Assembly (NCBI GenBank): GCA_017506865.1
Contig: JAFCMP010000223.1
Span: 186,001 to 250,000, forward strand
Reading direction: 5' to 3'
Length of the DNA stretch: 64,000 nt
Source of the DNA: Tribonema minus
Lineage: Eukaryota > Sar > Xanthophyceae > Tribonematales > Tribonemataceae
Shown here: piece by piece, positions 1 to 40,300 of the stretch
How the letters are laid out: each line of letters begins with the position of its first letter
How positions within the stretch are numbered: the stretch's first letter is position 1
Notes under the pieces: generated by a model
Databases searched by the model: none
Told to the model about the DNA's origin: nothing
The model's input: the letters and a program-made list of their open reading frames with translations, nothing else
Made by a program: the position numbers and the translations under genes

Positions 1-3000
1 CAAACGGCGCTCACTGCGCCCTTCACGCTTGAGCTCTCTCTGCTCTGCTGCTTGTGTTTGGTCGTCATTGCTCAGCTGGCTGCCGACCTATCTGCATGAA
101 GTTAATGGTGTGGACCTTGGAGGGGGGATGGGTCTGCTGACCTCTCTGCCCTACATATTACAGGTTAGCGATTCAGCAAATGTGGCGGACTGCACAGACA
201 TGTACACATTCTCATGCACTGCAGTTGCTGTTTGGGTCGGCTGAGCAACCATGTATGGCAAGCAGTTGTGCCTCCCTCTTCAGGATAAGGATGCCTTGCA
301 GGCGGTCGGCAGTGCATTGCGCAGGTTCCTTGGAAACAGTTTGTTTGAGCGGCACGCCACTTAGTATGTGATACTTGGAGTACTTCAGTCATCCTACAGG
401 CACTTCAGTCATGCTACAGGCATCCTTCTACTTGATTCCGTTCAATTTTCTGGAGAAAAGGGAATGCCAGCTAATAAGGAATCCACAATGCTCGTCACAC
501 TGAACACCCTGGCCAGTTCCCCTGCGTCAAATTGGCAACTTTCATTAGTCACATGCAATGACAGATGCAGTTACACTCTCCACATTTCCATTAGCTCTCA
601 TGGTTGCTTCATGTGTTGAGCTCACATACCTAACCCTAATCCTACATAAAAAACGGGCATCATGTTATTAAATAACGACCGACATCTTGATAACAATACA
701 TGAGCTGCGTTGTCACAGTGATGCCAGCATTGCATGACTATACCAACATACTCTCTTACAGGCAGCTGTGTGCATTGGCACAAGTTTTCTACTTCGAAGC
801 ATATAGCTTATAAGCAATCGTACAGTGAAGTAACGACACAGCAATGTGTTGTCACAATGCAGGCTGCCAGCGTGGGCTCCTTTTTGTCAAGTTGAGCATA
901 GCCACTGTGACTGTAGTGTGGGCGTGTTTGTACCCTGTTGTGCACTGCAATGAGTTGTGGACTGCCCATAGTGGTGCGCCTATGCACCTGCGCGACCGTG
1001 ACCTCAAGCGTCAGCACCAGGGGCGGGGGTTGCGGTCAAGGTCAGGATGGGGGAAGGGCACCAGCCTCTTGTGCTGACGTGCTGACGCAATAAGCAACGC
1101 TCCTTCACGCAGTTGCAACCACCCTACGCTGCTGATGCCGCCACGCTGAACGCCAGACACACATACCCTGTTGCCCATAGCTCGCAAGCATCGGCACTTT
1201 TCTATGCGCGCAGTGTATAATGGAGTGAACTCGCAGCACCCTGGGAGCATTAACGTTTTGCCAATCGCATTCCGCTCATGTGCAGGCAGTTGTGGGCGTT
1301 GGTGCAGGCGCTCTGGCTGACGAGCTAGTGGTCCGGCAGTGGCCAATCAGAACGATTCGACAGTGGCTGCAGGGCGTGGGTATGGTAGGGCCTGCCATTG
1401 CACTGGTCCTAGCAGCACAGCAGTCACACGGGGGGTCTCCCTACTACTCGTGAGTCATGCACTTGTGACGCCATCGCTCATGAGTCAACCACTCGTGATT
1501 CAGTCACTCGTGAGTCAATCAATGGTGACTTGAAGTAGTTTGCCATTGCACTGGTCCTGGCATAGCACATGGGGGGTCTCGTTACCACGCATGTGTCAAG
1601 TGTTTGCTGTGGTGTTGAGGGCCGATTAATATAGGTATGATATTCGAGGGTATGGGTAGGTATGAGTACAGGCATACCCATAATGTGTGCTACCCTCTCA
1701 ATGTTCTGCAAGACTCCAGATTGGGTCCTTGCCATGAATTACCTTCAATAGTTATGGCTGAGGTTTTCCCGCCTGAAACCCAAGTTCACTTTCTGGTTTG
1801 GCTTGTGGTTGTGGAGGGTCCTGTACTTATGGACCTCGCTGATCAAAAGCACTGGCGATGAAGCTGCAGGCCCGTCTGCATGTAAATTCTGGAATGGAGC
1901 ACATTGGCCTGTTTGCTGCACCTTGGGGTTGAACCAGTGGCAGTTTGATTCTTAAGTGTTCATACAGTTACCTATGTTCCATCACAAGTGTGTATGACAG
2001 CTGTAAACCCTACATACCCTACGCACCCTTACACTAACCCTGACCGTAGGTCGGATGCTCAACAGGCGCACCTCTTGTCGCCGCCCATCGCATTACCCGC
2101 GGCGCATCGCAACAAATGAAGCGCCGCGCCATTGCCCTTCACTTCTGCTGGCATCATTTGCGGAGCTCCACGGTCACACAACAATCACGATGTGACTCAC
2201 CGCTGCATTGTGCAAGTTGATGCCGCCCACCTGTGCCCTGGAAGTGAATTGCTGGCCCAGGCTCTGATCCCTGAGCACTGACTTTGCAGTTCCGGACACG
2301 CTACATACCTACGCTGTTTGGCCACAATAACTAAGCACTGCCACCAACCTGTTGATGCCGCAGGGGTGCGCTGCTGGCCTTGGGCTCCGCTCTGTCAGCG
2401 CTGACACTTGGCGGCGTATCTGTGAGCCACCTGGACATCGCGCCCTCTCGAGCGGGGCTTATTTTTGGCGCAGGTGAGAGACTACAGTGTATTGAAGTAT
2501 TGCTGCACGCATTGTCAGCTCATGTGTCATATCGGGTGCAGGAGTGTATGTAGGCACAGACGCAGCATTGAACAAGTACATGCAGATAGAGTGTGCAGTC
2601 AACAACTTTTGTGTTTTGTTTCAGAAGGGATTTCCTGCACAAGGTTGTACTATGCCAGAAATTGCAGAGAATCTCTTCAAGGGCGTTGATAAGCACATGT
2701 ACGTGATTGAGGTCGCCTGATGCGCAGAACTTGGTTGTGACCAAATGCGGGAGGAGACGCGTATTTTGGAGTACTGTTTTATAATGTAATTCACTTCAAG
2801 CACAGACAGGGAGCAACAGCCAAAAAGTCATCAGCCGACAACTTGCACATAAGCCTAGATCTACCAGCAAGCTCATTGCTGCACTTGGTGACCATTTTTT
2901 GAGATGAGCTGCTGACCACACACGGTTTCGCTAGCACAAGGAAAACCTAATGATGGGGTGCTTGCTGGTGATTCCGAAAAGTGAGTGGGGCTGCATTCTA

Positions 3001-3592
3001 AAATCCATTCGAGCTGCTGCTCAGTAAGAGCTGGGCCGGACACTGCTCAGAACAATCTCAGTGCATCTCCTCAGAGATAGCCAGCACAGAGGCTCATGTT
3101 TGGCAGCCGCTCATTGTTGGCATGCGTTTCTGGCCCAGAGTGGGGGCTTCTTACCCTGATTCTGACATTCATCTCAACTCTCAGTTCAAAAGGGTAGAGC
3201 CGGAACTTCACAAAGTATCTTGACACATGATGCCCAGATCAAAACGTCGGCACTTCAACTGTAACATCCAAATGACCGTCATCATCATACAAACACTCCA
3301 ACTTGAATTTAATGTTCAACTCGGCTTTGTTGCCCTACCCCGCTTTCGGTGTGTTCCAGGTAACACCGCTGGTACGCTGGCGGGCCTGGTGGCAGTGCCC
3401 CTCAGTGGCTGGCTCGTAGACACCTTTCACAACTGGGACCTGGTCTTGTACATGTTTTCGCTTAGCTATGTGATTGGGGCAGTAGCGTGGGTTGCATGGG
3501 TGGGGGGGGAGGAAATTGAGTACCCCCCGCAAATAGGGGCAGGGGTCAAAGGGTCGTTCGCAGAGCATAATGCTCGCAACACAGACTTATAG
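1..3592 (+). CDS. SLC17/PHT4-type anion transporter, 3' part (partial)
   Basis: This is the C-terminal half of a major facilitator superfamily transporter of the SLC17 (sodium-phosphate/PHT4/vesicular anion) group; the 5' part lies outside the window. I read four phase-compatible exons: about 55-163, 1286-1449, 2364-2473 and 3360-3592. Exon 1 reads SWLPTYLHE then a hydrophobic LLTSLPYILQ. Exon 2 begins AVVGVGAGALADEL and has an IRTIRQW segment, as in the family's loop between helices. Exon 3 contains VSHLDIAPSRAGLIFG and exon 4 NTAGTLAGLVAVPLSGWLVD, matching the family block HLDIAP-(X)-AGxxxG-xNTxGTLAG across the splice junction. The protein would sit in a membrane (plasma, plastid or vesicle membrane cannot be told) and move an organic or inorganic anion. 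The substrate is not predictable here. The exact start of exon 1 is uncertain. The stop is TAG at 3590-3592. Confidence 0.85.
1388..1585 (+). repeat. Tandem copies of transporter exon 2 end and its 5' splice site
   Basis: The last coding part of exon 2 (TGCCATTGCACTGGTCCT near 1393, then GGGGGTCTC) recurs about 150 bp downstream in the intron (TGCCATTGCACTGGTCCT near 1541, then GGGGGTCTC). The donor itself, ACTCGTGAGTCA near 1446, recurs in variants near 1475, 1490 and 1505. Only the first donor keeps the reading frame into exon 3. Confidence 0.75.
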
Positions 3593-4139
3593 CTGATAAA
3601 ATTATGTGTCGGGGCTCAAGGTCATAACTTTGTCCCGTGACACATGGTGAATGTTACAAAGTGTTTCTGAACAACAGATTGATAACATTCTATGATTGGG
3701 GGGGGACAGCTGTGTTCCGGTGGGCGCATTGCAGACACAGCGTGATGGGCTTGTAAGGATGACACCAACACATTCGTGCCAATTGGTAACACAGGGGGTC
3801 ATCAAGCAAGGGGCCACCGATGCGCATTTTGCTCTCCAGAAAATGTACGTCAAGGCGTATCATGTGTACACTTGCAATAATTATTGTCATGGTCTGGGGT
3901 TTCACTGTTTGCACATGCGCTGCAACTCCACGCCATATCACTGTGAGCAGGCAGCACCTCCTGCTAGTTTGAGCATATGATGGCATAGGGCATGCATGAT
4001 GTCTGGACACTTGTTGAGCTTCCGCCATTACATTGAGCTATGTGCCCAGACCGCGCACGACCTGACTGCGCACGACATGCGCTGTCTGGCCCGGGGGCCA
4101 CCATGGACATCGCCATACTGTAGCATGAAGTATTTGTGG
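3593..4139. other. Intergenic spacer, nothing recognised
   Basis: Between the transporter stop and the first dispersed repeat I see no exon with protein-family similarity on either strand and no RNA gene. Confidence 0.5.
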
Positions 4140-4835: not shown

Positions 4836-4839
4836 ACAT

Positions 4840-11260: not shown

Positions 11261-11312
11261 TGGAAAAAAAAAAAATGGTGACTCGTGTACACATGTGCTG
11301 AGACACATTGTA

Positions 11313-11325
11313 CTTGCATGTACTT
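11313..11325 (+). repeat. Target-site duplication, 3' side of LINE
   Basis: CTTGCATGTACTT here is identical to 13966-13978 on the other side of the element. The final TT may belong to the A-tail on the element's strand, so the duplication is 11-13 bp. It contains GTAC. Confidence 0.85.
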
Positions 11326-13965
11326 TTTATTAATTCTCGCTCAGGGCGCGAAAAAGCCCAGATGATTGGCATCTAGCTGTAAGGAATCTACATGTCGTAT
11401 GACAGTCTGAAAGTGTCGCAACGACAACCACTCAAACGCCGCCGCCGCCAAATGGCATCTCGGGGTCCTCCCCTACGTCCTCCTCCATGTGCCCCCCCCC
11501 CCTGGATTCTGCCATGTGTGTCATGACACGGCCAGAGTACGCCATGTGGAGCGCTGCCGACAGTGCCGAGCGTAAGCGCGCCAGGGCGATGCCCTTGAGA
11601 GCTTTAGGGCGCGCTCCTCCGGGCACTGACATCCTGCTGGCATACTCCGTCGCCACAGCCTCCAGCAGCTTCCGCCCCTGCTCCCCGATGCTGCCAAATG
11701 ACCCTATCGCCAAAGTGGCAAGTTTGTAGCAATTCTGATCATAATGACCAGAATAGTGGGTGGTCTTGGCGGCCTCTTGGTCGCGGCAGCATCGCTCGGG
11801 GTCTGCTGCAGTCTTCGCCGCCCGCGACGCCACCTGTGCCTCGAAGCAGGTAACGTCCACCATGAGCGGTAGGTGGCGTGTCGGGTCGTCGTAGCCGGTC
11901 ACCGGGAAGGCGTCGGCAGGCAGCACGATGTCCATCCTGCGACTCCCCGGCGGCCCGGCGGACCCCAGAAACGGCGTGTAGTCCTCGTCCACCAGTTCCG
12001 TTTTGAGGTATTGCCGCAGGATGCGCTGCGTGGCCCTCTTGACGCTATTGTGGACAATGGTGTCGTGCGCCTTGACGCGTGGCGCTTGACACAGCCGTGC
12101 ATGCAGAGTGCCGCCCGGGCGACTTCCCGCACAGCTTGCAGCCTGCCGTCTGCTCCTCTACTCCGATGGCGCGTTTGACGGCCAGCTGCCAGGATAGGCC
12201 ATCGAACGAAGCCGTTGTGGAGTACATGGGCTCGTTGAGGAATGCCATGCCGGTCGAGTGCATGTGGCGCTGCGACCGGAATCGAGCAAGTGCTTGCGTG
12301 CGTTGCGTGCCCTGCGGCAGCTGTTGCAGGTCCGCCTCCACCTTATCTGCAAGCTCGGTAGCGACGGCATCTGCAAGCGCACTCTGATTGGGGCGCTTCA
12401 GGCTACACTGCAACTGCAGAGCACTGGCGTCAAGTACGCAAGCAGCATCTGCACCAGTGCCACCACCTGCTGTCGGCCGCAGCGGCGGCTGCTGCGTATG
12501 TGGTTGCTGCTGCAGTGGCGTTAGCGCTGGTGGCAGTATATGTTCCAGCGTGTCACCTGTTGCTGCACGTAGAGATGTGGCAGCTGTGGCGATCGTCCGC
12601 ATGAGGGGCAGGCGCGCCACCTCTGCTGCTGCTGCGCCTTGTAGCATTGCTGGTGTGGAACGCGCAGCGCCTGCATTGACGGCTGCCGCTGCTGCGTGCG
12701 CTGGTGCTGCAGCTGCGCCGCCTGCCGTTGCTGCTGCTGCCAGTGGTGTTGCTGCTGCCGCAGGTGTTGGTGCAGCACCTGCCGCATTGGCCGCTGCCAC
12801 CGCCATTGCCGCTGTCGCAGCCGGCACGGTTGCGGCGCCGCCTGCCGACGCTGCTCCTGTTGCAGGTGCTGCAGCAGCCCTTAGGCTAGTAGGGCCTGTA
12901 GCAGCTGTGTTGCCTATGCCCGCAGCCGCTGCTGTTGATGCTGCAGTTAGTGATGCCGCCGAGGCCATTTGAGGTGCAACATGTGCTGCCGCTGCTGCAG
13001 CAGCCTCTGATGCTGGAGCAGCTGCTGCTGCCGCCGCTGCTGCTGCCGCCGGAGTAGTTGCGCCGTGCGCCGCCGCTGCTGCTGCTGCCGCTGGTGCCGC
13101 CTGTGCTGCCGCCGCGGCCCCTGATCCAGCGGCAGCTGCGTCGTGTGTTGCCGGAATGGCTGCGCCATAAGCGCGGCCAGCCGCTGATGCAGTTGCCGCT
13201 GCCGGAGCGGTCGCGCCTCCACTGGCAACCGCCGCTGCCGCTGTAACAGTTGCCGCTGCTGATGCTGCTGGTGCTGGTGCTGCTGCCGCTGCTGCCGGTG
13301 CCGCTTGTGTTGCCGCATCCTCAGCAGCGTTGTCTGCAGCCGCTTGAGGAGCCGCCTGCTGCAGCACCACCGCCCATCCAGAGAGTGCTGGTTGCAGCGC
13401 TTGCAACGTGCCCGCCACATCGCAGCATCAGCGATGTCGCAGGCGCTGGTAGTGCCAAGGCCGCCATGCCGTGTTGGGAGTCGCGCTTGCTGTAAGGCTG
13501 GGCCGTGCGCTGCCAGATGGAAGTGGGCCCCACTTTGCTCAAACTGGCGCCAGGTCTGGCCTGGTGGCTGCAGGCCCATTGAGTGCTCAAGCACCCACTG
13601 CGTGACCCGATCTTACTCCTTGGCGGCTGGCGCTGTCTGCGTAGTGGGAATGGTGCGCAGGCAGTACGTCATGCGAGGCACCACGCAGTAGCGCAGTAAC
13701 CTGAACATAGCCCTCGGAGATGTCAGGCGCGCGCATCGCTCTGCAAATCGAGCCCCTGCCCCGCCTGCACCCGCTTCCCTGCGCAGCCATGCGTCCACAA
13801 AGCTGCTGTGGCCCACCGGCACCCCCAGCAACACAGCTCCACGGTTCTGATTTTCATCCGTATCCCCCACTAGCTGAACGCCCAGCTGCTGCAGCAGTTG
13901 CCGCTCGTGGTCTGTCACCACATGCCCCCTGCCAGGCAGCGCGCGTGACTTGGTGAGGTTTAGCT
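11326..13965 (-). mobile_element. 5'-truncated non-LTR retrotransposon with CCHC finger and restriction-like endonuclease
   Basis: Element of about 2.64 kb, minus strand, bounded by an exact target-site duplication. It starts inside the RT thumb (LNLTKSRALPGRG near 13955, then GVPVGHSSFVDAWLR and MFRLLRYCVVPRMTYCL), so the catalytic RT domains are absent. Then come QQARLPTRHGGLG near 13490, a long Ala-rich linker (about 13400-12480), a CKLCGKSPGRHSAC finger near 12130 (C-x2-C-x6-H-x3-C) and an endonuclease region with RRMDIVLP near 11940 and LMVDVTC near 11855 (candidate PD-(D/E)XK acidic residues). It ends with HYDQNCYKLATLAIGSFG and a C-terminal helical part, stop at 11432. A TAA at 13613-13615 and frameshifts near 13410 and 12090 show it is dead. 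The 3' UTR ends TTAATAAAAA. Family: RLE-bearing LINEs (R2/CRE/NeSL/Utopia-like); the clade is not resolved here. Confidence 0.88.
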
Positions 13966-13978
13966 CTTGCATGTACTT
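13966..13978 (+). repeat. Target-site duplication, 5' side of LINE
   Basis: CTTGCATGTACTT, identical to 11313-11325. On the minus strand the element begins right after AAGTACATGCAAG. Confidence 0.85.
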
Positions 13979-14588
13979 GCATTTACTTCCGCTTGAGGGG
14001 TGGCAGACGCTATTGAACATGCAGGATGTTGTGAAGCTCTTATGCAGTGCGTGTGCTCGCAGCGCAAGGTGCCAGTGGTCTCATGCTTTGTGCAGCCTTC
14101 AATATTACAAAAGGTTATCTCATACCTGTGATACATGAGTACACGCAAGAGTGCATCGCCGTGTGTTTTGCACGGCGGCGGTCCAAGCGCATGATATAGG
14201 CACTGGACAAATGAAGCGCTTGCTTTTTTTGCACGCAATTACGCACCACCACCATCGGATGTATTATACATGCATATCATTGAGCAATTGTTCAACAGCA
14301 TGCGTTTGTCAGAATACATTGTCAAAACAGATATGTCAGTACAAGCGGCAGAGGCGCGAATGCACACTGGACATCAATTACCAGTCAGTCACCGTGTCCG
14401 TGTCATGTAGATCATGTAGACAAAGAATTTAGGATTGCTGTACACCAAGAATTGTTCCCGTGAACAGAACATTTCAGGCCACAGTTGGTGGGAATGCTTG
14501 ATTTAAATTGTTGACTTTATACTTCGGAGCATATACCTGTATATACTTCAAAACATCGATGTATGTACCCTGCGAAGACAATGCACGG

Positions 14589-17500
14589 TCAGAGCCCGCC
14601 TCTGCTGGAGCCCCGCCCCTCCCACCTCAGCCCCCTTGGCGTCGGCCTGTCGAGATCGCGATCCAGCAGCAGCAGCCGCAGCCGTGAAATCTCTTCCTGT
14701 GCCGCCTTTGCATTTTCCACCATCTGCTCCTCTAGCACAGATATGCGCTCGTCCCGCGCACGCAGGCTGGCCTTGAGTTCAACCACCTCTTCCGCCAGCC
14801 ACTTGAAGTTGCACGTGAAGTGACGGCAGCATTCCCCTTCGATTGCGCTTCTTTCTCCCTCCCCTCAGAGTCCTCCGCCCACCAGCGCTGCGACTCGGGG
14901 GGCGTGGGGTCCCTGCCTCCCCCTCCGTAACTGCCGTAACTGCCACCCCTGTAACTGTCAACATCCGGGCGCGGCGACGCGCGCAGCAGAGACTCCAGCT
15001 TGGCGATGACGCACTCCTACGTGACCACGGTGGAGCGGTAGGCCTCCAGCTTGCTGCGCAGGCCCTGCTGGCGCATGATGTAGGCGGCCTGCTGCTGCTG
15101 CGCCTTGAGCAGCGTCTTCAGCTCGTCTTGCAGCTCCACACCGCCGTGCCGGCCCTGCGGGGCGGCAGTTCCAAGCAGGCGAGTGTGGGAGCAGTGCTCA
15201 GTGGAATGGCCATTTGCAGGCACATACGTCAGCATGATTTTTTAGGATGAATGGATACATACATACGTACACATGCCGTACTGCTGCTGCGCCTGCACAG
15301 CGCTTGGCGCTTGCCATGCAGCAACATGCTGCGGTGCCGGCCCTGCAGCGGCAGTTTCGCACGAGCATTGAGGTACCAACGCTGCAGTGCTCAGTAGCAA
15401 GGTCACATCAACGCTTAGCAGCGGCGCCTTGAGCGTGTTCTGCAGGCTGGCAGCAACGGTGTCGAGCATTGACAGAGCAGTGCTCAGTTCAGCGAGGCAG
15501 CAACGCTCGTCGGCCGGCTCAGGTTTGACAGCTGGCGCATTTTTGCAGAGAACATGGCTTCGCAGCAGCAGTTTTGAGCATGAAGGGAGCAGTGCGCAGC
15601 GCGGCGGTCCCGTCCAATGGTGGCGCACTACTGTACCCATAGACAGCTTGACCCCGCAGTTGCATTTGCAAGCAAGGATGGTGAGCCAGCAATGGGTGAG
15701 CACTGCAGATGCACTTTTGTTGCACTGCAGGTGGGCCAATGGTTCTTGTGAAGATACTTGTGGTCATATCATTGAGTCGTGCCAAGCTGTGGATGACCAT
15801 GCAGCTGCTGCCGTTGTGCCGCAATGTACAACATGCCGAGCTCGTGTTGGCAGTGCCGCACCGCCGTGCCTCACTTAGCAGCAGCCGCAATTGCGGCGCA
15901 CTGCAGAATTCGTATATATATTACAACAGTCTTTCAGGCTATTGCTAGTCATCAGGTATAGACTGCACACATGTGCACTTGTGCAGTACGCCTTCACAGT
16001 TGGGTTAGGGTTAGCGCAGCCCTAAGGGGCTCAGCATGTGCCGCAGCACACGCGTACATATGTGGCGATGCCATGCTTCACAGAGTTGCGACCGCTTGCG
16101 AACCAAGCAAGTTTCTCGAGAGCGGCATGATGGCGCACGCAAGAAATCAAGCTGGGGGTTTGGGTAGGGCAGGTTACACAATGGGTGTGCGGGGTCCCAG
16201 TTGCTGGCAGATATTCGTAGGCCGCAGTTCACCCACCGGACGTGCACTCTATGTGTACCCCATATGTACTCTACAACTGCTTATCATCTGACTGCTGCCC
16301 TGTGCTGCGCGCAGCCGCCGAATGAGCTCCAGCCTGCAGCTATCTAGCAAGTCTAGCCGATCTTCTCGGTCACGCAGCAGGGCCTCTAGTTAGTGGCAGC
16401 GCTTAGCCAGGAGCTTCATGCGGCCGTAAGCTGGCTGCGCTACTTGCAGCGCCAGGTCTGTTAGGACTTGAACTTGCTGGTGCGGGCGTGACGTGACCTG
16501 TTAGGGTTGAAGTTAGGGTTGGAGTCAGGGTTATGCGTTGGTTAGGGCAGGCACACTACTGGTTACGAGTATCCGCTGCAGTAAGGTTTTGCAGTACTGG
16601 GCAAGAAACAGAACCACAGAGCCATGCGGTTGCATCACTGCACTAAAATCTCGGACCAACGGAAACGCCAACTGCATACTTCTGTAATGTAGCCATTGTG
16701 TGCCCTCCCAGGCTATGGAGCGTGCATACACTTCGGCGTGTTGTTTGTTCATACATGATAATCGGTACATACTATCAGTTCACCCAAAAAATCACTATTT
16801 GCAATGTATGACGCATACAATTGGTGAGAAACTCTTGCTGTCTTTCCTAGAGTCACATGTGACATGTGACTACATTGCCAGCTGAACCAGTCAGAGCACA
16901 GAGAGTGCAGGCGCGCATATGTAACTGGCATCGTTGCTGATGCAACTTCTCCGCGTGCATAAATGGGCAACATGGGGACTCGGAGTCTAAATTCTTTGAG
17001 CGAGTACATCACAGGTGGCAAGGGACCCAGCCCCGGCCGTTGTCTAAGATGCCATGTGTACCTAGTGCCTACTGATATCTGTGCAATTGGAGGATCACAG
17101 ACATGGACAGCAATCAGCATTTGCCGGCCGGCATGAAACCCATGTGGCCTTCGCTGCTGCTGAACACAGTAGCTGCAGAACATAGGACATCGTGATGTCA
17201 CCATCAAAAGAGACCAAGCTATTGGCTGCAAACTCTCAGCTTCACATAGTAGTGGAAAATGTTGGATATCATCAAAGTTTCAAGGCCAGGAAGTATATCT
17301 TGGTGTCTGTACCTGGTGCTGCCCCCATGTTTCAGTAGTAGCTGCAGACCCAAGTAGCGCGTGGACCAGCCTGGTGGCAGCTCGTCCTCCCTTGCGGTGC
17401 TCTTGTGTAACCGACGTAACTGTCGGTGGGCGCCATCACGCTCAGCCTCGGCTTGCGTCAGCTGCCGTTTGAGCTTGCTCAGCTCGGGTGCCAGATCACT

Positions 17501-19383
17501 TGCCACCTGATTAGGGTTGAAATAAGGGTTTGGGGGCAGCATCAGAGCCCCGGCAACAACAAAGAGTGTTGCGGTGTGGAAACTTGCATTGCAGCCTGTG
17601 CACATTGAATGCAGAGTGGTACGCATAATGGTAGGCATGTAGTAGCCGCTATACTAGGCACTGCGCGTTGAAGGCGCCCAAGGCAGCATGTATGCCCCTG
17701 CGTGTACCGTATGTATATGCTGCGGTAAGCGTCATTGCGGAGCATCTCTGGCTTGATATATGCCTTCAAGCCTCAAGGCAGACCACATGTCATCGGCGGC
17801 GCTTGTTGACATGCGAACTAGTACCAACAAATGTGCCGTCCCAAATGTATTGTTTGTTTACTGTCAAGCGTCAGCGAGCCTGAGGACTGCATACAAGCTG
17901 AACTCGCACATGAATGGCGCAATGCAGGTCACAGGGCTAGGGTTAGGGTGGTAGTTGCAGTGCACGCGATGCCACATTTTCAAAGCACAATTCACAGTGA
18001 ATGCAGTTTGCGCGTTCTATCACGTCACAGTTGAAGATGCGGAGCCAAGGCACATATGTAGGGATCTCACTCACCCCATGCGCCCCCGCCTCTCGCTTCT
18101 CCAGCATCGCCTGCAGCTGCTTGAGGCCCCTCCCCAGCTCCTCTAGCCGCTGAGACCCCTGCTTCTCCAATGGACGAAAACCGGGTCTTGCTGATCGTTG
18201 CTGCAGTGGTCTTGTCTCTGGGCTCGTCTCCTTGTTTCGGTAGGGCCCATCTGCTGTAGCGGTCGCTGCCTCATAGGCTGAGGCCTCTGTGGTGCCACTG
18301 GGGGGGAAAAGTGCAACCAGTCAAGGAAATGGCATTGATGCATATGTCAAGAATGTTGACATGTCAAGAACTTGCTGAACGAACGCATTCTTATTATTAT
18401 TGAAGCTCCACCACCGTGACGATAGCATCATGATTGATGGCAGGGTCCATGCGTCAGGGTCACAACGATGTGCAGGTGCTGTGAAGGTCAGCGTTGCTGC
18501 TCTCGTGTAACGTGGCTGGCGGTGCCATGCAGACATCCCCGGTGTCAAGTACAGCACTTAAAGTTGCACGTAGTGATCACCTTTTGCTGTCACCTCTGGC
18601 GCGTCCCACTCCCCCGCTGCCGCCCCCTCCCCCCCCCCCTCCCAGTACTGCCCCTCACCATACCCCTCAGGCTCTTGCTGCTCCTGCTGCTGCGCCGCTG
18701 CCCCCTTGTGCCCCAGTCGCGACGCCGCCAGCATCGCTGCCGCAATCCCTGCCCTCAAGTCCGGGCGCTGCTGCGACTCGCGTGGCGCATGTGGCAACAG
18801 CCTGGGACTCTGTCTCGGACTCTACCTCGGACTCTGCCTGCCAGTGGGACTCTGCCTCGGACTCTGTGATGGGCTGTTGTTTGCCGACGCCACCTTGCGC
18901 ACGCTGTTGCCGCCGCTGCCGTTGCCGCCGCTGATGCGGCCGCTGCCTGCGGGACTGCGCGAGAGCTGCAGCAGCGGCGGCTGCGGCGATGACAAAAGCG
19001 GCGGCGGCCCTATCACCTTCATAGTGACGCGGTACTCGCCAGCGTCCTCCACGTGTGCGCCCATGGCTGCAGCGGCGTGAAAAGCGTGCTGCTCAGGGCA
19101 AACTGGCCCTCCGGCCGGTGGGGCAGGTGCAGCAGGGCGTAGCCGAGGTAGGCCGCATGCGCCGCCGCCGCCGCTGCAGCAGCTGTCTTGCGCAGCGCCG
19201 CGTAACCGAAGAACGTGTACAGCAGCACCACCGTGACCGCAGACTCCACGCCGGCGCCGTCCACAACCTCATACAGCGACTCCGCGTAAGCGTCGACGGT
19301 GACATGAGGCACGACTTGACCTGCGCGCTGAGCGCGAAGCGCGTGGTTTCAGGCCACGCTAGGCTGATTTGCACAATGATCAC
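14589..19383 (-). pseudogene. C2/coiled-coil gene, inverted dead copy
   Basis: Inverted copy of the plus-strand gene at 44784-50476, exons and introns included, extending through both genes' 3' flanks. Similarity stops near 19362, equivalent to 45893, so exon 1 and the first 170 or so codons of exon 2 are missing. Lesions relative to the intact copy: a 1-nt loss near 19300 (MSAVDAY frame), an insertion near 19065 (between LFTPL and the EYRVTMK block), a 1-nt loss near 17383 (after KSTARE), a TAA at 16390-16392 and a TAG at 15017-15019. The final coiled-coil exon (VELKASLRARDERISVLEEQ near 14780) is still nearly identical, so the duplication is fairly recent. An intron-derived stretch at 16749-17231 stays open for 160 codons in both copies but shows no protein-like composition. 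Confidence 0.85.
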
Positions 19384-20466
19384 TCTTGCAGGTGATCCGG
19401 TGGCGGGGCGTCTCCTTGGTGGCCAGCGGGCCTCCTGTTGGCCGGAAGGCCCCTTGTTTCTTGAAGTGCTTCTGCATGCGTATGCGCATATATGCAGGAG
19501 CCTCCCTCAGCCTTTTTTGCTTGTGCATGGTGTAGTCGGCCTGGCTGCTGCAGACAAACTGTTTCAGTATACTGATTCGAGTACGTTGCGCGCAGAACCG
19601 CAACAGCCGACTCGGAGTTGCCAAGGCAATCACTGACCTGTACACATACTGGTTTCTGCTGCATCTCCACATGGCCTGACAATCACAGCTTTCATTCCAC
19701 AGAGCCTGACTAGTGTTGCTTTAAGTTACACAAATTGATTGAATGTGGGCTGGGTTCGGCTGCTGCCACCAAAGATGGCACCCTACGCTGGTTGCTCTAC
19801 CAGCAGTCACCAGTTCTAACCCCCATTGTTGCTTGCCAACCAGATACTTCCATATGAACATGGCCATGTCACATGTGTGACACAGTGTAGGGTGACACGT
19901 AGGTGCTGCAGCAATCTACTATCCTCAGCTGATAATTTGCGGTACAGTGATCATGTATGCCATGTCATGCACACTTAAATGAAAAATGCGTCAAATAGTT
20001 GCAGAATACAGTTTGCTACTGCAGCTCCAGGGGCCTGATTTTCAGGCATGAACAGCATGCTTATTTTTAATATTATGATAGCTATACTTGCCTGACAGTG
20101 CACATGTGTATTTGGTCAGAGCACATGCAGCAATCAGCGGGGCACAGTGAGCGCACAGTGGTTTTTTTGTTCACATGCTCAATCATTATGGTTATTTGCT
20201 GAAGGCATCAACATATTTGTAGCATGTGCACGTGGTGAATGGTAAGCAATGCTCGCAGCAGAACTTGATTCTAATTCAGCAGAATATGGTGACTCCCCAC
20301 TGGCAATGCGCCAAGCGCACCCCTGCAGCTGCAACGTGATGATGTCATGTTGGCCATCAGATTATGATGTCGTGGTGCACCATGGTCATCACATCAGTGG
20401 AATGCTGGGACAATTAACAGCAATTACAACACATACTTGTATGATATACAGTAAATCTCATGGCTA

Positions 20467-23400
20467 TTAGAAGGCACAACAGATTATGCCGGGCTGTGCT
20501 GCGTGCAAGTCGTGCTTGATGACCTGGGACTTGAGAGTGTCAGAGGCAGCAGCTATCAAAAAGCCTCCACCCCGGCCTGTGATGATGTACAACGGCTTTC
20601 CACATCTCAGACTGCCGGCAGCCTTTCGCCGCACCCGCAGCTCATGCCGAATGGCAGCCTGGCTTGTAGCGCCATTCAGACCATGTAGATCCATCTGCAA
20701 CACAAGGGGCAAGAAGCACATGCTGTTTTGTTGAGATGTATCCAGCCAAAGAAGAATTGACATGCATTACAAGAGTGTTCAGGAGCTGTGCAAGGGTGCC
20801 ATGTGTCTAAACACCATTGCCTGCTGCATCAAGGTATCATATGATGATCATCATGGTAAAATGCAGCAGGAGTCACTTCCGCGCTGACAGGGATCAACAA
20901 GCCTTCGGGTTCTTCTGGGACCAATCAATTATGCACAATATCCATGTGTAACAACATAGTAAAGGCTATGGACATCTGGACTTTAGACGCCCCACCACCG
21001 AATTTAGGATGGTGTCACGCGGGCCCAAAGTCCGGGATCTGTTCTGAAATCACATGCACTTGATCTACGCACCACCTCGTGTAAGAGTTGTAGATGCTAT
21101 TTCAGATGATGTGTAAAATCACTAAAGTAGTAAGTTTAGCGGTGCAGTTGTGGTATCTCGTGACCTACTCGTCAATTGATGCGCTTCTTCAAATTGCCAA
21201 GTCTGGCTTACTTTGAAGTATGCGTGTGTTTAATTGGCACACAAGTTGAATATGTACCCTTCAAAACAGCCTTGGAACGCCACATTGCAGTTTGCTGCCA
21301 TGTTCTTTGAGGTATTCATATACATGCAAATGCCAGGCAAGCGGCTTGTGCTAGTAGGAAGGAATCGGCCATGTTAGCAATCAGCTTCATGTGTACATGC
21401 CTGGCTGACACATAGAAGTATGCTACACTTAGCAGCTGTGAGTGAACAGGGCATCTGCCTTCTGTCTGTGAACTGGCAGAATTACCATCGTTGGCAGTGT
21501 GCGCCCAGGTGGTCAACTTGATTGAATGCAACGCATGTTGCATTGACCGCATGTTGCATTGACCACCTGGGCGCACAGCAGGTGCTACAAGATGTATCTC
21601 AAGTTGCCAATGGGTTGTCTCCTGCATGTATTGCACTCACCACAGAACCCAAGGGCATAGTATTGCCAGCGGAGTCTTTGATGGAACGGCTTCGCTCTGG
21701 CCTGTACGGACTGATGGCCTTTGACGACAGAGCATCGCAGTACAGCAGGTCCACCTTCTTGATGTCACCAAGCTCATCTCCTGCATGAATTATGGATCTC
21801 CATGTGCCAAGGATCGGTTCCACCCCAGCAGCACGCATCCTGCCGATGACACGCTCAGCCTCATCCAGGCGTTTGTTGTTAATGTACGCCTGCATGAGGC
21901 TGACCATGCAAGGGGGGCGCACAAGCAGCAAAGCAGGACGCATCGTGCTCAGTACAGTCCTGAAGTCAGCACAGGCCCTGATAAGGGTTGCAGGACCACT
22001 ATTGAGGTGAAAAGTAATAGAGGTAGCCGTGGTTTAGCACAACTGAAATGTGCCTGTCACCAGACCTAGACTCAGTTGCACCGATGCTGTTGGAGTTTGA
22101 ACGCTAGTCCGGAGGGCAGGCAGTGTGGTGCTTTTCAATATTGTGCATGACGTTGTCATGATTAAAGTCCATGCAGCTGACATGACGGCCACTGCACTGA
22201 CTGGAGAGTGTACCGACTGCCTGTGATTTCATGGTATGCACCAGCTGTTGCAGTGTCAAGGCACGGCATGAAGGTGTAGCTGCAGGCAAGCAATGCTTCA
22301 GTAATCGGCAGGCACTGCAATGGCATGCTAGGCAAACCACGCGTTTTGTAGCACAAGTCCATCAGTATATTCATTTGTACGTACCTAGTGAACATGATGG
22401 CATCCGGCTTGACAGCAGCAGACCGGATCCTCTCCGCAAGCACTCCCTCCACTTTGTCCGGCTGCTTTGCCGTTGCATAGCAGGTGATCAGTGCGTTGTA
22501 GGTCTTGACGTCGGGGGCCAGCTGGCGATCACGCATCTCACTCCAGATGCCCTCAGCAATGCTTACCTCCCCCGCTTTCCCAGCATTATCCAGCAGAGTG
22601 GTCATGATGACAAGATTGGGCTGTACTCCGCCAGTTGCGCACATCTCCCGATAACATGCCATCATCTCGGCTAACTGGCCCGCCCTGCCGATGGCATGCA
22701 AAAGCGCACCCCAGCTCTGTAAATCCGGCCGGATCCCCTGCAGCACCAGATGCGCCAGTCATAAAGCACGTGGCTTACTGCGGTGATAGATGCTGCTGAT
22801 TGACATGAATATAGCATGGTAATGTGAGCAAGTAGCAAAATCACAGATGGCTGCGAACTTCAAGGTCAAGTGTGTGCCACAGTGTGTGGTAAACGCTCAT
22901 ATACAAAAACAAATATCGCTGCAAGCAACATCCTGAGATTCCTGTCACTGGGGCATCAGTAACAATCGCATGCGCAAGTCTGTGTGCCACCGCAATGTTT
23001 GAGAACCTCTGTAGGGCTTGTAGACATCATCACATCCAGCTTTTCAACAGTGTGACATCAGCTTCCATCTACACCATTGCGTCATGGTGAACATGAAAGA
23101 ACAACCACCCCCAGTTTGAGAATGCCATCAAACACAACGCATGTGCCTAAGCTTTGCAGCACTTGCGTCCACGTGAAGACCCTGGGCGGCAGGACAACCT
23201 TTAAGGCACTGCCGCAGTGCCAGCAGCAGATTGGATGCCCACTATTCTTCAGAGGCCTGCAGTACTGCTGCATGCACACAACGATCTGGTTTCATGATAA
23301 TCACCTCATGCTGCATCATCCGAAAGATGGTGATGGCGCTGATCCCGTTGCGCTCCGCCACACACACCATGATTGCAGCGGTGAAATGCCGAATGTTCGG

Positions 23401-24231
23401 CACAGGACCTGCATCCTTCATGAGTTGCAGCAGCTCCAACGCCCGCTTGCTGCCGCCTCTGCTATCGCCAGCGTGAGTCGATGCACTGTTGCGGACACAC
23501 TGTTGAATGAGTGTGAGATAGGTGCGCCCATCGGGGCTGACTCTGTGATTCCTCATGTTATCGATGAGCTGCACTGCGTCATTGAGCCGCCCTGCCTTAC
23601 CGCATGCGACTAGCACAGCACCGCATGCGACCTGTGTCCAGCGAAACCCATCCTGCTCCATCCTGTGCAGCAACTTCAGGGCGTTAACAGACATGGTTGC
23701 GTGCGCCAAATGGCTGGTTCGTAATCGCCAGCGGTCACTGAATTCAAGGCCCGCAAGCGGTTCAGTGCCTCTATCGCGTGATGGGGCTGCTCATTAACCG
23801 CCAAGGCCTCGAGAAGCGCCCTCGATTCCACAGCGGTGGGCTCCTCGATGCTCTTGAAGAATTTGAGAGCCTCCTTCCATTTTTTTGGTCTGCTTAGAGC
23901 GCGTACTACAGGCCGATAAGCTTGGTGGCTTGCCTCCACGTGAAGTGTGCTGCTGCCTCGTTGTAAAGTTGCTGACGATGCCGTGCAGGACATTAAGGTG
24001 ATGGCGGTGCGAGTACAATGGCTCTCGTGCTGCACGCCCCGGATCACGAGCATCTCCGCTGAAGGTGTGCTTCACAAAGGCCCATGCTGGAGGAACGGCA
24101 ACTTGCGCTCGTACGCCACTGCCGAGACATCTGGCTAGGTGGTGGCCAGGGCCCAAAAGCTTGGCGCGAAGCATATGTGCTCTTGAGCTGCCTTTTAATC
24201 GCGCCCTTCTCTCTTTGCTGCGGCACTTCAA
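20467..24231 (-). CDS. PPR-SMR protein, possibly frameshifted
   Basis: Pentatricopeptide-repeat protein with a C-terminal Smr domain, a class that binds organellar RNA and acts in chloroplast or mitochondrial RNA processing. Exons on the minus strand: exon 1 about 24231-23305, exon 2 22737-22385, exon 3 21977-21641, exon 4 20694-20467; exons 2-4 join in phase. PPR-like units include WKEALKFFKSIE near 23870, GKAGRLNDAVQLIDNM near 23600, LAPDVKTYNALITCYATAKQ near 22510 and RLDEAERVIGRMRAAGVEP near 21870. Exon 4 has MDLHGLNGATSQ and YIITGRGGG. Exon 1 needs a 1-nt frame change near 23710 (between DYEPAI and AHATMSVNALKLL), and its N-terminus shifts by 5 nt relative to the other copy near 23930. 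So either the copy is dying or the read has an indel. No transit peptide or ATG could be fixed. Confidence 0.7.
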
Positions 24232-28300: not shown

Positions 28301-28589
28301 AATGCTGACTGTCAGCACTATTTCACCAGAAGTTTACCGCTCGAGCTTGCAACTTGCAAGTATGATGGCAGCAGCTCATTTCCTGCTTTCGGTGCTCTTC
28401 CTCCTTGTTCCAGTAGGAACCACTGCCATGTAGCAATGAGTGCATGATGCAACTAAATATCATTTGCATCTCATCAATCACTATGTTTTGCTTACCTCCG
28501 TGTGATGCAACCACACAGTATGTTTTGCTTACCTCCGTGTGATGCAACCACCCGGTGTTGCTGCGCCTGCAACTGCTGCTGCTGCTGCC

Positions 28590-28621
<32 letters not shown>

Positions 28622-31600: not shown

Positions 31601-34600
31601 TTTCCCAAGGGGGGCAGGTGTGCAAGTGCAGCCGTAGTTAGGGTGAAGGGGTTGAGTAGGGGTAGGGTTTCAGTGGTCTAAATTGAACCTGCGAAACCCT
31701 AACCCTAACCCTAACCCTAACCCTAACCCTAACCCTAACCCTAAATCACAAGGGGTGGGCCATGACACATCAGTGATGATGCCAAACTGCAGGGTTCCAT
31801 GAGTGTGTGTTGATGCAAGTACTAGAATTTGAGGTTGAATAGAGCACTGCCGTTCTGCTCTAACCGCCATGAGTGCACAGGGCTGCAGCCCACCAAGAGC
31901 TGCCACTTGCAAAACTTCAACAATGCAAATCCAGGGGATTTTGTCATCAAGTGACGCTCCCTCATGCACTTCACCCTCACCCGCCCATGCTCCGCAAAGC
32001 CCGCCGCACCCACTGCGCATCGCCAACCAGCAACCACCAACACACCAATCATCCACCCCCCAGCAACCCCTGCAACCGTACATACCTGACTCACGCCGCA
32101 CCACCGCAACAGGGCGCTGCACCCCCAACCCCCCTCCCCCTCGCTCCCCCCCCCTGTTCCCCTTGGCGGCATCAAGTGCCGCCTGCCGCTGTGCCAGGCG
32201 CTGCTCCCGCTCCGAGCGCAGGCGCGCCAGCGCTGCCTCCACGGCGCGCTTCCTGTCCTCCTCGCGGTGCAGCGCGCTGGCCTGCTCGCGCGCCGCGCGC
32301 CCCGCCTCTGCGATGTGTATATATATATAGGGTTGCACAGAACCGTATTTGTGTAAGCAATTACCGTTTGAAGCACGACGTACTTGAGAACATGCCATAG
32401 TTGAGGCTTGCGCGCCACGCGCCCCGCGTCTGCGGTGCATGTAGGGTTGTATAGAACCGTCCTTGTGTGAGCAGATATGTCATGTTCAAGAACGACGTGT
32501 TTCAGGCTCACGCGCCGCACGCCCCGCGTGTGCGCGGTTTGCCGATGTGCAGCGGAAACGGAGTACGCTGAGCCATCAAACCGAGGTGCTGCACATGTGC
32601 TACATGCGCTATGACGAACAGTGTTTTTTGCGCCTCAAGCACAAGCAGATGAAGTGCAGTACTTCTAAGGAGCAGTTGTTGTGCTGAACACTGGTGCCAC
32701 TGCTGAGTGCTGCCCTGCGTGCGCCGCACAGCCGGCATCTGGGCAGCAGCGATACTACCGCAAACGCAATGGCATCAGGGGAGCGCCATGCACAGCGAGA
32801 CATGTTTGATGCCATGCTGAGCGCTGCTGCCACCGCGAGTGCTGCCTCCACGGCGCGCGTCTCGTCCTCATTGCGTTGCAGTGTGTGCTGTCCTGTTTGC
32901 GCAGGAAAGAGACCCTTACTGCGAGATAATTTCCGTCCAATGTGTCTCTTTGAGCAGCAGCGCTCAGGATGGGGAGCTGTGCAGTGTAATGTGCTGCGCA
33001 GCTCACCCACAGCCTCTTTAGGCCTGTACTCTGCTTCATGTTGGGGCAGGTAGATGCACACTGATGACTGGCCAACCGGGGATGAAAATGATGCCAACAG
33101 CCAACTGCAACCTAAAAATCACACGTGGCAACCACATGCACTTCTATTTTTGCATGAGCTCCATCGCCAGCGTTTGATGTGGTGGCGCTGCAGAAGCAAC
33201 CACATGCGCTGCATGCAGATGCACTCATACACTGCGCAGCCAGCATTGTTTTCTGTCTGTCATGACCTTGACCATGTCTCTTGCTACATAAGTAAGCTTG
33301 TCAACACCGCATGCGCATGCTTGCTGTTCCTTCTGTGATGCGCGCTCGCCATGCAGCGTCGCCTACTGCCTACATACACAATCACACTCAACATCAACTT
33401 GACCTTCAAACTCACCTGCGCCATCCTGAGCCGCCGCCGCGGCAGATGCGGCAGCGCTCGGCACCTGCAGCGCGCGCGCCACCACAGACTGCAGCCCCAG
33501 CTCCTCCATCTGCTCCTGCAGGGCCTGCATGTCGCGGTTTCTGCTGAGCACTGCCCCGCTGCCAGTGCTGCTCCTGCTGCTTCTGCCGCCGCCACCGCCG
33601 CCGGCTAGGTTCACCGCCGCCGCCTTGACGACCATGGTGCCCTGCGATGTGTACAGGGCAGTGGGTGCACATGCTGTGACTTGTGGCCTTTGTGTCGATG
33701 ACAGAAGTGCTGCTGTTTTTCTGTCATGGCTCAAGTTGCAGGCAGCGGCGCTGAGGGCTCAAATGCATGTTGAACAACGCACCGCCGACCATACTGACCT
33801 CGCATTGTGCAGGCACACATGTACTTAGAAGTATTTCACCTGAGATGCTTGAAGCATACGGTTGAAGTAGCGGTCGCCTACATACCTCGCCGATCTGGCT
33901 CTGCTCGCGCGACATGATGTCCGCCAGAAAGTTGTGTATGTGTCGCTTGATGAAGCCGTGCCGCAGGATCTGGTCCATGTCGGGTCGCGCCGCGGGCGAC
34001 GTCGCCAGCATGCTCGCTATGAGATCGCGCAAGTGGGGGGAGTACTTGGGGTTGATAGGGGGGTACTTGCCCCTGACAATCTTGCTCGCGAGGCCGTTGA
34101 GGCTGTTGGAGTCAAAGGCGTGGTTGAGCGTTGTCATCTCGTACAGCACGCAGCCCAGCGCCCACACGTCGGACTTGTGGTTGTACGGCTCGTTCTTGAA
34201 GATCTCGGGGGACATGTAGTAGGGGGTTCCGATGCACGTGCTCGCGAAGTCCATGGTGCCATTGAGCACCTTGCTGATGCCCAGGTCCCCCAGCACCACC
34301 CTGCCGTTGCCCAGCAGGAACACGTTCTGCGTCTTGAGGTCGCGGTGCAGTATGCGGTGGCTGTGCATGTAGTGCAGCCCCAGCGACATCTGCACGAAGA
34401 AGTGCAGGATTTTGCTTTCGCTGAACAGCCTCCGCCTGGCTCCCTTGATCTGCTCGCACAGGTCCCCTCCGTCGCAGTATTCCATGGCGATGCACAGGCA
34501 GTCCTTGCGCGGAGTGAGAAAGCTCTCTCTGTAGCCGACGATGTTGGGGTGGTGAAGCCGTTTCAGCAGTTCCACCTCCATCCTGCATGCCTCCCTCTCC

Positions 34601-36072: not shown

Positions 36073-36109
<37 letters not shown>

Positions 36110-36668
36110 TGCCGCCGCCGTCGCCACCGCCGCCAGATAAGTGAGCTTGGCTGTCTGTGTAGCCGCTGCTGTTGGCGTTGCGACCGCCATATCGCGCTCC
36201 CCCGCCGTACCCCCCTCCCTGCCCGCGGTGGTCGAGCGGCGGCGCGCTCGACACCTCTCCCCTGTTCCTCCTGTAGAACGCGTCTGATGGTGAGCACGCG
36301 TTGGCGCCGCCCCAGCTAAGAAGTGACCCCATCGACGACGCTCCTCCGCCGCAGCTGCGCCCCCTGCCCTTCTCTGGCGTGGCTGCATCGCTGAAGTGCT
36401 GGGGTTGCATGTAACAGGGTGCGGGAGCGAAGCCGTGGGCTGGCGCAAGGTTGTCGAGCTGACTAGGACCTGCTTTGGGTGGTGGCCGCGCCATCGATCT
36501 GGCACCAGCACCTGCAAACCCTCTGCTGCTGGCCGAAGCTCTTAATCCGTGCTCCAGTGACCTCGACTCCACTCCGTGGGCTAGAAAATCAGAGGAGGTG
36601 TCGGCGGGCCGGAACTGGCCACGACGGTGATGCGTCGGTTGCTGCTGCTGCTGCCATGTCTGACTCAT
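35769..36668 (-). CDS. SPIRAL1/HN1-like microtubule-associated protein
   Basis: Single-exon open frame of 299 residues from ATG at 36668 to the stop at 35769. The N-terminus is Gln/Ser-rich (MSQTWQQQQQ) and the middle carries Gly-rich stretches, the longest around residues 175-200. The diagnostic part is the C-terminus: NQNCGNFITDRPTSRV followed by LAPPGGHSSFSLG at the very end. This is the TDRPxxxVxxxPGGxSSxxL signature shared by plant SPIRAL1 proteins and the animal Jupiter/HN1 family. In plants these bind microtubules and help orient cortical arrays. The usual N-terminal repeat of the signature is absent and the protein is about twice or more the length of plant SPIRAL1, so it is a one-signature, expanded form. 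Microtubule binding is inferred from the family only. Confidence 0.8.
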
Positions 36669-37373
36669 TCTCTATGACAGCGCGTCTTGTTGAAAGCCGC
36701 CGTTCCGTGCGACCTCGTGTGGTGGTTTGCTAGTGGGGCACTTCAGTTCAGTTGTTGAATCTTGCCGTTATTTTGACGTTACACATTTGGAAACCGTTTT
36801 AACGTGCGTGTCACTGTGTGCGCCGCATGTGTCCGTGTTTGTGCACTTGGCAGTGCAAGCTGGCACTGTCATGTCAGCCAGTGCTGTCTTTGTTACATTG
36901 TGACAAATCAGCTGCATGCATGCGCCATCTGCCACAGGACTCATTCATGCATGCTGACAGTAGTCACTTCTACACACGCAGGACACACGCAGGCTGTCGG
37001 CTTGACACGAGTTAGCCACGTTTATGCTTGCTGAAATCTTGCTCATGTGGAGACACCCAGAAAGACGCTGAAAGCACAACGACATACAGGCAACTGCACT
37101 TGGTCAAGTTCAGGAGTGCATGTCACGGCTGCAAGCACATAAAAATGGTCCCTGCCCCCTGCTGCTCAACTACGCTACCATGCCATCAAAGCAAGCGCAC
37201 TTTATGCGCAATAATATGCCACCCTTCATTCAGCATCGTGATGCACACGACCACAAGGTTTGGCTCATTTCGCACGGCGGCACAGGCGGCACAGCAGTGG
37301 CATTGTCGGCACGGCGACATGGCCGAGAACAGGGTGTAATCATATGTATTTACAAGGAAGAGACATGACGACT
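36669..37373. other. Intergenic spacer; ARFRP1 3' end signal
   Basis: The minus strand just past the ARFRP1 stop contains TTGTAAAT near 37352, matching the TGTAA poly(A) signal used by many green algae. No other feature seen. Confidence 0.45.
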
Positions 37374-40300
37374 CTAAGTCATGCCTTGTGTCTTTTCGCG
37401 TGCTTTTGCTATTAACCACGAGATCCCCTCGTTGACTCCTTCTCTGCGCAACAGCAGAAACAACACCAAGGAGATCGCAAACAATAGAGGCATGAGACAC
37501 GCAAAACCTAACCGTCACCAGTCATCGCTCATCACTCATTACGCATTCATTACTTGGCCGACGACGTGAAGCTTATACTGCACACTTGCCCAATGACAAC
37601 GAAAACAGGCCCTAGATGAGCAGGGCGGCACTTGCAATACTGCAAGCTCTATACGACAGCTTCTTCACCCCCAACACATGACGTCATCATGGGTTACAGA
37701 AGTGATCAATGCAGGCGCCTGATCTTCGACGGCCACAGTGCATGTATGCATGTACCTCCTGTGCTCACTCTGCCAGGCGCGTGCACAGACTTCAACACAT
37801 GTGCGGTTGTAATTTGACCGACATGCGCCGCCCTGAGCCCCAGCACGCCGCTCATTTGGGGTCTTCACGGGTTGTGTTTCAGATCAAAGCAGCGAGCTCT
37901 ATTCTTCACGTCAGATGCTTTCCCATGCCAAACTTCAACTAGTCAGCTGATGCTCAACGTCAGTGGGACCACCACCTGACGTACTGCGCTGAAATATGGT
38001 GCTTTGCATTCATGAGTACATGTATACTTTGTAGATGCTGCCCCTCTGCCAACTCTGCTCATATATAGTACTCCTGACCTTAACTTAAAATACTGTTTAG
38101 TCAGCCTGACTAAGAGTGATTCCGACCTGACAAGTTGCATGAACGATTAATTGAAGTCATCCTGACATCTGAGTCAGTTATTGTGACTCGACGCCTCGCG
38201 CCGAGAACGACTCACCCTGACAGCGTGTGCGGGGAACAGCACGCCCACGACTTTGTGCTGTACGAGAGGAAATGGCTTGCTGCTGCTGCCCGGGTGCAGA
38301 TCATAATTTGTGGTGACCCATACAGGGTGATGTAGCGAGCACCACTTCAAGTAACAGTTGACGTTATGGTCACCCCGACAGCGTGCTGACACGCCCGTCA
38401 CCATACGCTCAACAAAGCAAAGGACCCTGATGCTGCTACACTCCGATGCAAAGCACAACTCAAAGTTACCCGGTAGAACAGTTGAAGTAAAGTTAACCGA
38501 CGACACTCACCCACAGGGCGTTGATGGCGCGTGCAAGCGTGACGGCACGTCGGTGTCCTGGTGCCCTACAAAGGAAAGTGCCCTGGAATGTGATGCTGCC
38601 ACCCCCCACTACAAGAGCATCACTCGAAAGATGCGCAGCAAGGATACAGTTGAAGTACAAGTTGAAGTCGCACTCACCCCGACAGTGCGCTAACAGCGTG
38701 AACGCCATCGTTTGGCAAGCGCGTAAACTTACGCTCTACAAAGGAAAGGGGCCTGAAGTTATGACGCTGCTACCCTCCAATGCAAGATCATCACTTGAGG
38801 TTACCAGGCAGGGACAGGACAGTTGAAGTACAAGTTGAAGTCGCACTCACCCCGACAGCGCGCTGACGGCGTGCACGCGGAACGGCACGCCCATCACCTT
38901 GTGCGCGTCGAACTGCGCCGCAATGTCCCCGCCGCTGCACGCGCCCGCCACGTCCTGCTTGTTGGCCAGCAGCAGCAGCGGCAGCGCGTGCAGCTCCGCC
39001 TGCTCGCGCACGGCGTGGAAGGCGAGCTGCGCCTCCTCAAAGCGTGCGGCGTCGGCGCTGTCCATGACGCATATGAGCGCGTGCGCGTCTGCGTAGTAGC
39101 GCTCCCACAGCGCGCGCAGGCGCACCTGCCCGCCCACGTCCCAGAAGGTAACGCTCACGCCGCCAATGTCCATCTTCGCGACTGCACGCGTGTTTAGCGG
39201 TGGGGGGGGGGGGGGCATTGATGAAGTCACGGGAGGTACGTGAAGTGCGTGATGGGTGAGGGGCGCAGCAGTGGCGCTGGAAAACTTCACCGCAGTGTCA
39301 AGGAGGGCGCTGGTTTCCTACAAAGATCTTACAGAAGGCAGGGTCCATCTTCGCGACTGCGCGCGAGTCAGGGGGGGGGCATGGAAAGAAGTGGGGGGTG
39401 ACGGCGAAGTTGCTCATGGTCTATGACATACTTGCAACTTCATGTATGTATGGCTAGAAGGCAAACCCTCAGCTAACTGCAACTTTTGCCAAGGGCAGGC
39501 CATGCCTACTCGGAGTGCTGGCATGGTGATCAGACTGTTGCGTTTCTCAGAGCATCCTAGTTCGAGATATGTCAACAGCTGAGGGCCATGTATCAGTTGC
39601 TGCGCAGTGGCAGGCTGTTGCAAGGGCAACAAGGCAACCAACTTCAACTTGTACTGACCACTGTCCTTGTTGTGGTGAAGGCAACAGCGACAAAGCGGGT
39701 CAGTTTAATGTTGAACTTGCCACTTCTTAGGCCGCCAGCATGCTATACAGCACTCCAAAGCCCAACTCCAAGCACGGCGTTCACGGCCGTGCCTATGCTT
39801 ATAGTTGTTTGTATAGCAAATGTACTGCTTTGACTACATCCGCTGCATGCAGAATGGACTGTACAGCTAGAGGTGCTGCCGCATGGCCTGGTGTTAACAT
39901 GACGTTCTCCTCAGCTGTGCTCATTTTGAAGTTTGTAGGTTACATGGACTAATGCATGCACGACCTATATTAGTGCGCCGCAGAGCGCTCACGAAATGCA
40001 GACACATATTTGCGGTGTACATGTGAACTCAAGCTGCGCAATGTACGATTATTTTTAGCAAGCCAAAGGCGCGCTTTGTCATGCAACTGACTATCGATGT
40101 CAGTCAGATTCTGGGTGTTCAGTCAACGCAGACGCCAACGAATGGTATTCTTATCACTAGTGCTGCTGAGAGTTGTGGAATTGATTGCAACGCACAATGT
40201 TGGTGCTCACTGGCATGCTTCAAGACAATGTTTTGCCGATCAGTTCGGCAAGTGATGGCACTCTTCAATTACTTGAAGTACAACTTTTTGCATGGCATGC

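Follow-up and report, generated by a model that had tools for sequence, protein, structure and literature searches.

Which steps make introns long in the xanthophycean alga Tribonema minus, and where along the intron do they take place? This question is raised by a 64-kb stretch of its genome (assembly GCA_017506865.1, contig JAFCMP010000223.1, positions 186,001–250,000; hereafter the window), in which short pieces of an MFS transporter gene, NEK and ARFRP1 that cover an exon edge with its splice site are repeated in the neighbouring intron. Four such direct repeats, one in the transporter, two in NEK and one in ARFRP1, were reported in an initial annotation, and self-alignment of the window found all of them where it had placed them. 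Based on the analyses described below, we conclude with a probability of roughly 60% that T. minus introns were lengthened by recurrent local tandem duplication, which tends to straddle exon-intron edges.

The sample consisted of the window and 193 kb in 21 further loci (L002–L022) of one T. minus genome (158-Mb assembly). A set of four kinesin genes was taken from loci picked for exon density among 132 kinesin-profile matches, without viewing the sequence. It was limited to exons with kinesin-profile support, and further predicted exons (two each in L019 and L022, one in L021) were dropped. The set comprises 15 introns with 30 edges, 16 of which lie within repeat arrays. Sixteen of the 17 arrays touch an edge, compared to 5.1 expected with uniform placement (formal P ~1e-9, a value that ignores dependence within genes). 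The introns contain copies of conserved kinesin coding sequence, such as MNERSSRSHSCFSVKLAQKT and HIPYRDSTLTRLLQ, indicating that copying proceeded from exon to intron. Repeat diagonals with a score of at least 20 numbered 335 in the window and 17 ten-kb loci, satellites and coding repeats included, versus 0 in one locally composition-matched Markov shuffle.

For the wider sample, exons were called with a simple self-trained gene-finding hidden Markov model (HMM), which yielded 185 exons in the window and 18 loci (L004–L021). This stricter model took the place of a first self-trained one, which had returned too many micro-exons (1,088 exons). Loci L002 (C1:50001–60000) and L003 (C10:50001–60000) have a G + C content of 0.715 and 0.672, compared to 0.49–0.61 in the other 15 ten-kb loci. 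They are possibly another kind of sequence than the remaining loci and were left out of the gene models and of all counts built on them. The gene finder recovered exons 1–3 of NEK, exons 1 and 2 of ARFRP1 and the kinesin exons, the latter being partly its training data.

In the 70 introns flanked on both sides by confident exons, merging repeats by overlap left 35 arrays, of which 29 touched an edge (11.8 expected). By source, the counts were 17 of 18 for the kinesin loci (6.6 expected), 8 of 12 for arbitrarily placed 10-kb loci (4.4 expected) and 4 of 5 for the window (0.8 expected), the last being biased by the repeats annotated initially. For the transporter, NEK and ARFRP1 together with PPIL1, all picked for their repeats, 5 of 6 arrays were edge-touching (1.4 expected). 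At the level of single edges with a coding score of at least 8, 29 of 229 (15 of 113 donors, 14 of 116 acceptors) were located inside a direct repeat with an intron-side partner, part of these being repeated coding exons on the minus strand of L011 or a mobile element at 43887. The same test at 1,132 random points in intron interiors found a downstream copy for 61 and an upstream copy for 66.

Several points weigh against an anchoring of arrays on exon edges. Repeat coverage is 0.21 at donors and 0.18 at acceptors, 0.10–0.16 at 60–300 bp into the intron and 0.05–0.07 at 500–800 bp, such that junctions have only ~1.6 times the coverage at 60–300 bp. Four of the 15 kinesin introns are without an array. 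Two of the 35 arrays are pieces of a dispersed element, one counted as edge-touching (43887–44168) and one as interior (in L005). Exons other than those of the kinesin set rely on a home-made gene finder; it failed to call two of the three transporter exons and the last exon of ARFRP1, fused neighbouring genes and took some edge copies for exons. The outcome also hinges on the rule for merging repeats, and a merge by overlap can be biased towards edges. Counted by sub-family in 65 introns, 16 of 49 were edge-touching versus 14.9 expected, which is no excess. This count was judged to split arrays (two of its 'interior' families sit inside the ARFRP1 array) and was superseded by the array-level count, because pieces of single arrays had been counted as separate interior families. 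The interpretation given in the initial annotation was to be abandoned if repeats overlapped junctions no more often than other intron positions; the sub-family count would speak for such a pattern, whereas the array-level count (16/17) does not.

Both the sub-family count and the modest coverage ratio at junctions are compatible with neutral duplication placed uniformly in present-day introns. The edge excess would then stem from detection, as the exonic copy is conserved and a copy with such a partner is therefore easier to detect. This explanation appears improbable in view of simulations with uniform duplication, an exon mutation rate set to 0.3 of that of introns and the identical detection pipeline. 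These gave an edge-touching fraction of 0.23–0.26, or of 0.26–0.45 at fixed ages, whereas 0.83–0.94 was observed.

Simulations bear as well on the idea that the introns were once short (~60–200 bp). Any duplication of 100–300 bp would then mostly have overlapped an edge, and the anchoring would be a fossil of burst-like growth that requires no hotspot. Simulated growth from introns of 60–200 bp resulted in edge-touching fractions of 0.88–1.00, which is close to the observed range. However, simulated arrays fill most of the intron, whereas the kinesin arrays total 6,717 bp (~5,980 bp minus exonic overhangs) compared to 16,092 intron bp, i.e. ~37%. In several introns, the donor and the acceptor each have an array of their own, and no repeat was detected between the two. 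The observed exon overhang (median 43.5 bp) is shorter than in simulated growth (medians 92–111 bp), and also shorter than with uniform placement (medians 63–84 bp; Kolmogorov–Smirnov p ~0.012, 1 of 16 points dropped). We therefore consider growth from once-short introns doubtful.

More specific than edge-straddling duplication as such is the notion that exon-intron junctions are mutational hotspots for tandem duplication of about nucleosome size, with introns growing outward from their splice sites and a splicing- or chromatin-linked process placing the breaks. We put this forward tentatively, as one possibility. Among 193 nearest-neighbour spacings, 80 fall within 100–179 bp and 40 within 220–339 bp; these uncontrolled counts are no more than suggestive of nucleosome-sized units.

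The fate of the copies can be followed in ARFRP1, which is encoded on the minus strand. Exon 1 (40367–40541), exon 2 (38851–39181, containing the Arf domain) and the last exon (37377–37443, EGVNEGISWLIAKAREKTQGMT) are represented in the transcript-derived protein P0001, and the first two were also called by the HMM. Five copies of the exon 2 end and its donor (38851/38850) lie within 38217–38904, following each other in steps of ~173, 167, 137 and 169 bp. Copy 1 (38819–38904) is the exonic original. The donor GTGAGT is retained in copy 2 (38646–38705, 93% identity) and copy 3 (38460–38549, limits approximate), has decayed to GTGACC in copy 4 (38343–38390), and follows copy 5 (38217–38258, 81%). 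In addition to what was annotated initially, the acceptor of exon 2 (unit 39168–39193) has an intronic copy at 39343–39368, with 24 of 26 positions matching at a spacing of 175 bp. This repeat is missing from the array counts, probably as a result of the low-complexity filter. In the intronic units, a pyrimidine tract and TAG precede the exon-end copy (38563–38580 and 38733–38750, minus strand), so that these copies resemble small pseudo-exons.

The transcript-derived ARFRP1 protein (Trinity name, EukProt, 192 aa, 99% identical) runs from SALSG straight into EGVNEG. PPIL1 has an intron with two additional copies each of the donor and the acceptor, and the annotated PPIL1 protein corresponds to splicing from the proximal donor to the last acceptor of this intron. 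As read from these two protein sequences, only the outermost junctions (proximal donor, distal acceptor) of one existing intron are used in both genes.

In a genome-wide search (158 Mb) that covered two units, those of ARFRP1 and L016 (each forming an array of at least five copies), and that skips simple repeats and very common words, neither unit matched outside its own locus. Since the aligned edge units also differ between genes, we give next to no credence to dispersed repeats or a mobile element inserting at exon edges. One pair does fit this description, namely the perfect 141-bp tandem pair at 43887–44168, which is part of a dispersed element also found at 11321–11461, 51320–51468, 58484–58624 and L005:7980–8251. 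In a separate observation, the open reading frame 5014–5910 matches reverse transcriptase (PF00078).

Could the copies be of use to the cell as back-up or decoy splice sites, or as mini-exons? The initial annotation had offered splice-site back-up next to intron lengthening. GT is retained in 25 of 28 donor copies (the three exceptions being GC; three self-matches were removed from 31 rows), AG is retained in 26 of 29 acceptor copies, and identity at the acceptor core is 0.92–0.93 (14–16 pairs). These values would favour retention. However, the 51 of 57 retained dinucleotides show no clear excess over a neutral expectation of ~47 of 57 derived from divergence at second codon positions, and copies of one array are not independent in this tally. 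In a leave-window-out comparison of 65 aligned pairs, identity was ~0.85 for the exon side, ~0.86 for the donor and ~0.75 for the intron side, i.e. the donors in the copies are no better preserved than the exonic part. Differences by codon position amounted to 14.0/8.4/23.5% at donors and 16.5/10.2/19.8% at acceptors; this count and the identity profile exclude the minus-strand edges of L011, which are repeated coding exons. By sequence comparison, the copies look neutral, with an identity pattern as for neutral copies set against a constrained original. Back-up splice sites are not supported on this ground, nor by the ARFRP1 and PPIL1 proteins, which contain none of the copies, and we consider them very improbable. 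A general route of intron lengthening, the other half of the initial proposal, is supported within the sample by the edge-touching kinesin arrays (16/17).

The other repeats annotated initially lie in the transporter and NEK. The transporter exon (1286–1449, plus strand) has its donor after 1449, and its frame runs on into an exon at 2364. The gene is identified by a match to MFS_1 (PF07690), below Pfam's cut-off, in the downstream exon reading frame 3224–3592. The unit of exon end and donor (1393–1457) recurs in the intron at 1541–1598 (spacing 148, 75% over 65 columns), where the donor GT is lost. The donor itself is covered by a 15-bp minisatellite of ~5 copies (1446–1529).

In NEK, which is located on the minus strand, exon 3 (32086–32307, acceptor 32307/32308) was called by the HMM, and its residues AGRAAREQ... 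occur in the annotated T. minus protein P0121. Its acceptor unit (32284–32315) is followed by a second copy at 32406–32437 (88%, spacing 122 from the original) and a third at 32506–32537 (81%, spacing 100 from the second). Beyond the initial annotation, 67 bp from the interior of exon 3 (32225–32291) are the source of a larger duplication into intron 2 (32834–32902; spacing 609, 78% over 69 columns). The end of a NEK exon 7 had also been annotated. Its 37-bp tandem pair (28479–28515 and 28516–28552, 95% identity) with a donor-like GTAAGC site is present, whereas its status as an exon edge is not supported by P0121, from which the region is absent; 28479–28552 is thus a putative exon edge. NEK further contains an interstitial AACCCT array of the TTAGGG telomere type (31695–31744). 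Such arrays occur elsewhere as well, and the noncoding DNA of the sampled loci is strongly enriched in TTAGGG words.

Other repeats in the sample are of a different kind. NEK and ARFRP1 are flanked by large inverted duplications, namely 13966–19358 (minus) versus 45893–51105 (plus) and 20251–24177 (minus) versus 53428–57760 (plus). Their blocks share 66–85% identity, the longest measuring 4.2 kb at 85%, and include PPR-repeat genes. A 451-bp tandem duplication with 99% identity lies in an alanine-rich open reading frame (62468–63369). Repeats over predicted exons were found at L006:4303–4962 and L008:764–1309, with spacings such as 126/129/258/387 and 150/324/474. As all of these are multiples of three, in-frame duplications may survive inside exons. 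The motif TTGAAGT/ACTTCAA occurs 183 times in noncoding DNA of the sampled loci, compared to ~28 expected (Markov-2; ~6.6-fold), and is present inside several repeat units, e.g. that of ARFRP1. It was considered as a cause of the duplications and rejected, as it showed no clear concentration at splice sites.

Taking up edge-straddling tandem duplication again, its steps may have been as follows. The duplicated units mostly measure ~85–280 bp and tend to lie across an edge, with 16–94 bp of exon (kinesin set) and the remainder intron. The outermost junction, i.e. the proximal donor or distal acceptor, would keep working, and because of this the protein would remain unchanged. The inner copy would turn into intron, decay about neutrally and could multiply again into an array. 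The duplications presumably arise by end-joining of DNA breaks with fill-in synthesis, followed by unequal exchange. The edge preference would result from the sites at which duplication starts or from filtering of long exon copies, and not from a benefit of the copies. Its candidate causes are a mutational hotspot, growth from once-short introns and selection against long exon copies.

Minisatellites would not be expected to cover the edge of a coding exon in almost all arrays, although arrays of five or more copies, as in ARFRP1 and L016, resemble those produced by unequal exchange. In the parts of the literature drawn on here, tandem duplication giving a new intron (the Rogers model) is described across an intron-exon boundary of potato RdRp (PMC4974935), and duplication of coding exons is described for Drosophila (PMC2891723); fill-in by CST–Pol alpha-primase with non-homologous end joining of breaks is reported to give rise to small tandem duplications (PMC8355091). 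Rogers 1989, Hellsten 2011 and Gao and Lynch 2009 are referred to as cited within these three papers. Intron gain of this type likewise relies on local copying of a gene piece with its splice signals, one copy becoming intron. There, however, a new intron arises, whereas here existing introns are lengthened at many edges of several genes, and the copied junctions are not used in ARFRP1 and PPIL1, the two genes open to such a check. Break-repair duplications share the head-to-tail copies of tens to hundreds of bp. The edge units described here are too diverged for exact breakpoints or microhomology, and splice junctions are not mentioned in the passages of PMC8355091 drawn on. Edge-anchored arrays as a general pattern were not found among the literature matches listed on duplication, splice sites and intron length, a scope outside of which most subscription journals lie. 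Single duplications across exon-intron borders are thus known, whereas a systematic edge-anchored pattern was not met in the literature searched.

To our knowledge, intron lengthening without transposons is poorly documented. In T. minus, diverged copies of coding exon ends within introns mark lengthening steps, and a single genome therefore allows the direction, rate and placement of intron growth to be read. Should the edge preference be mutational, splicing or exon chromatin would be tied to DNA breakage.

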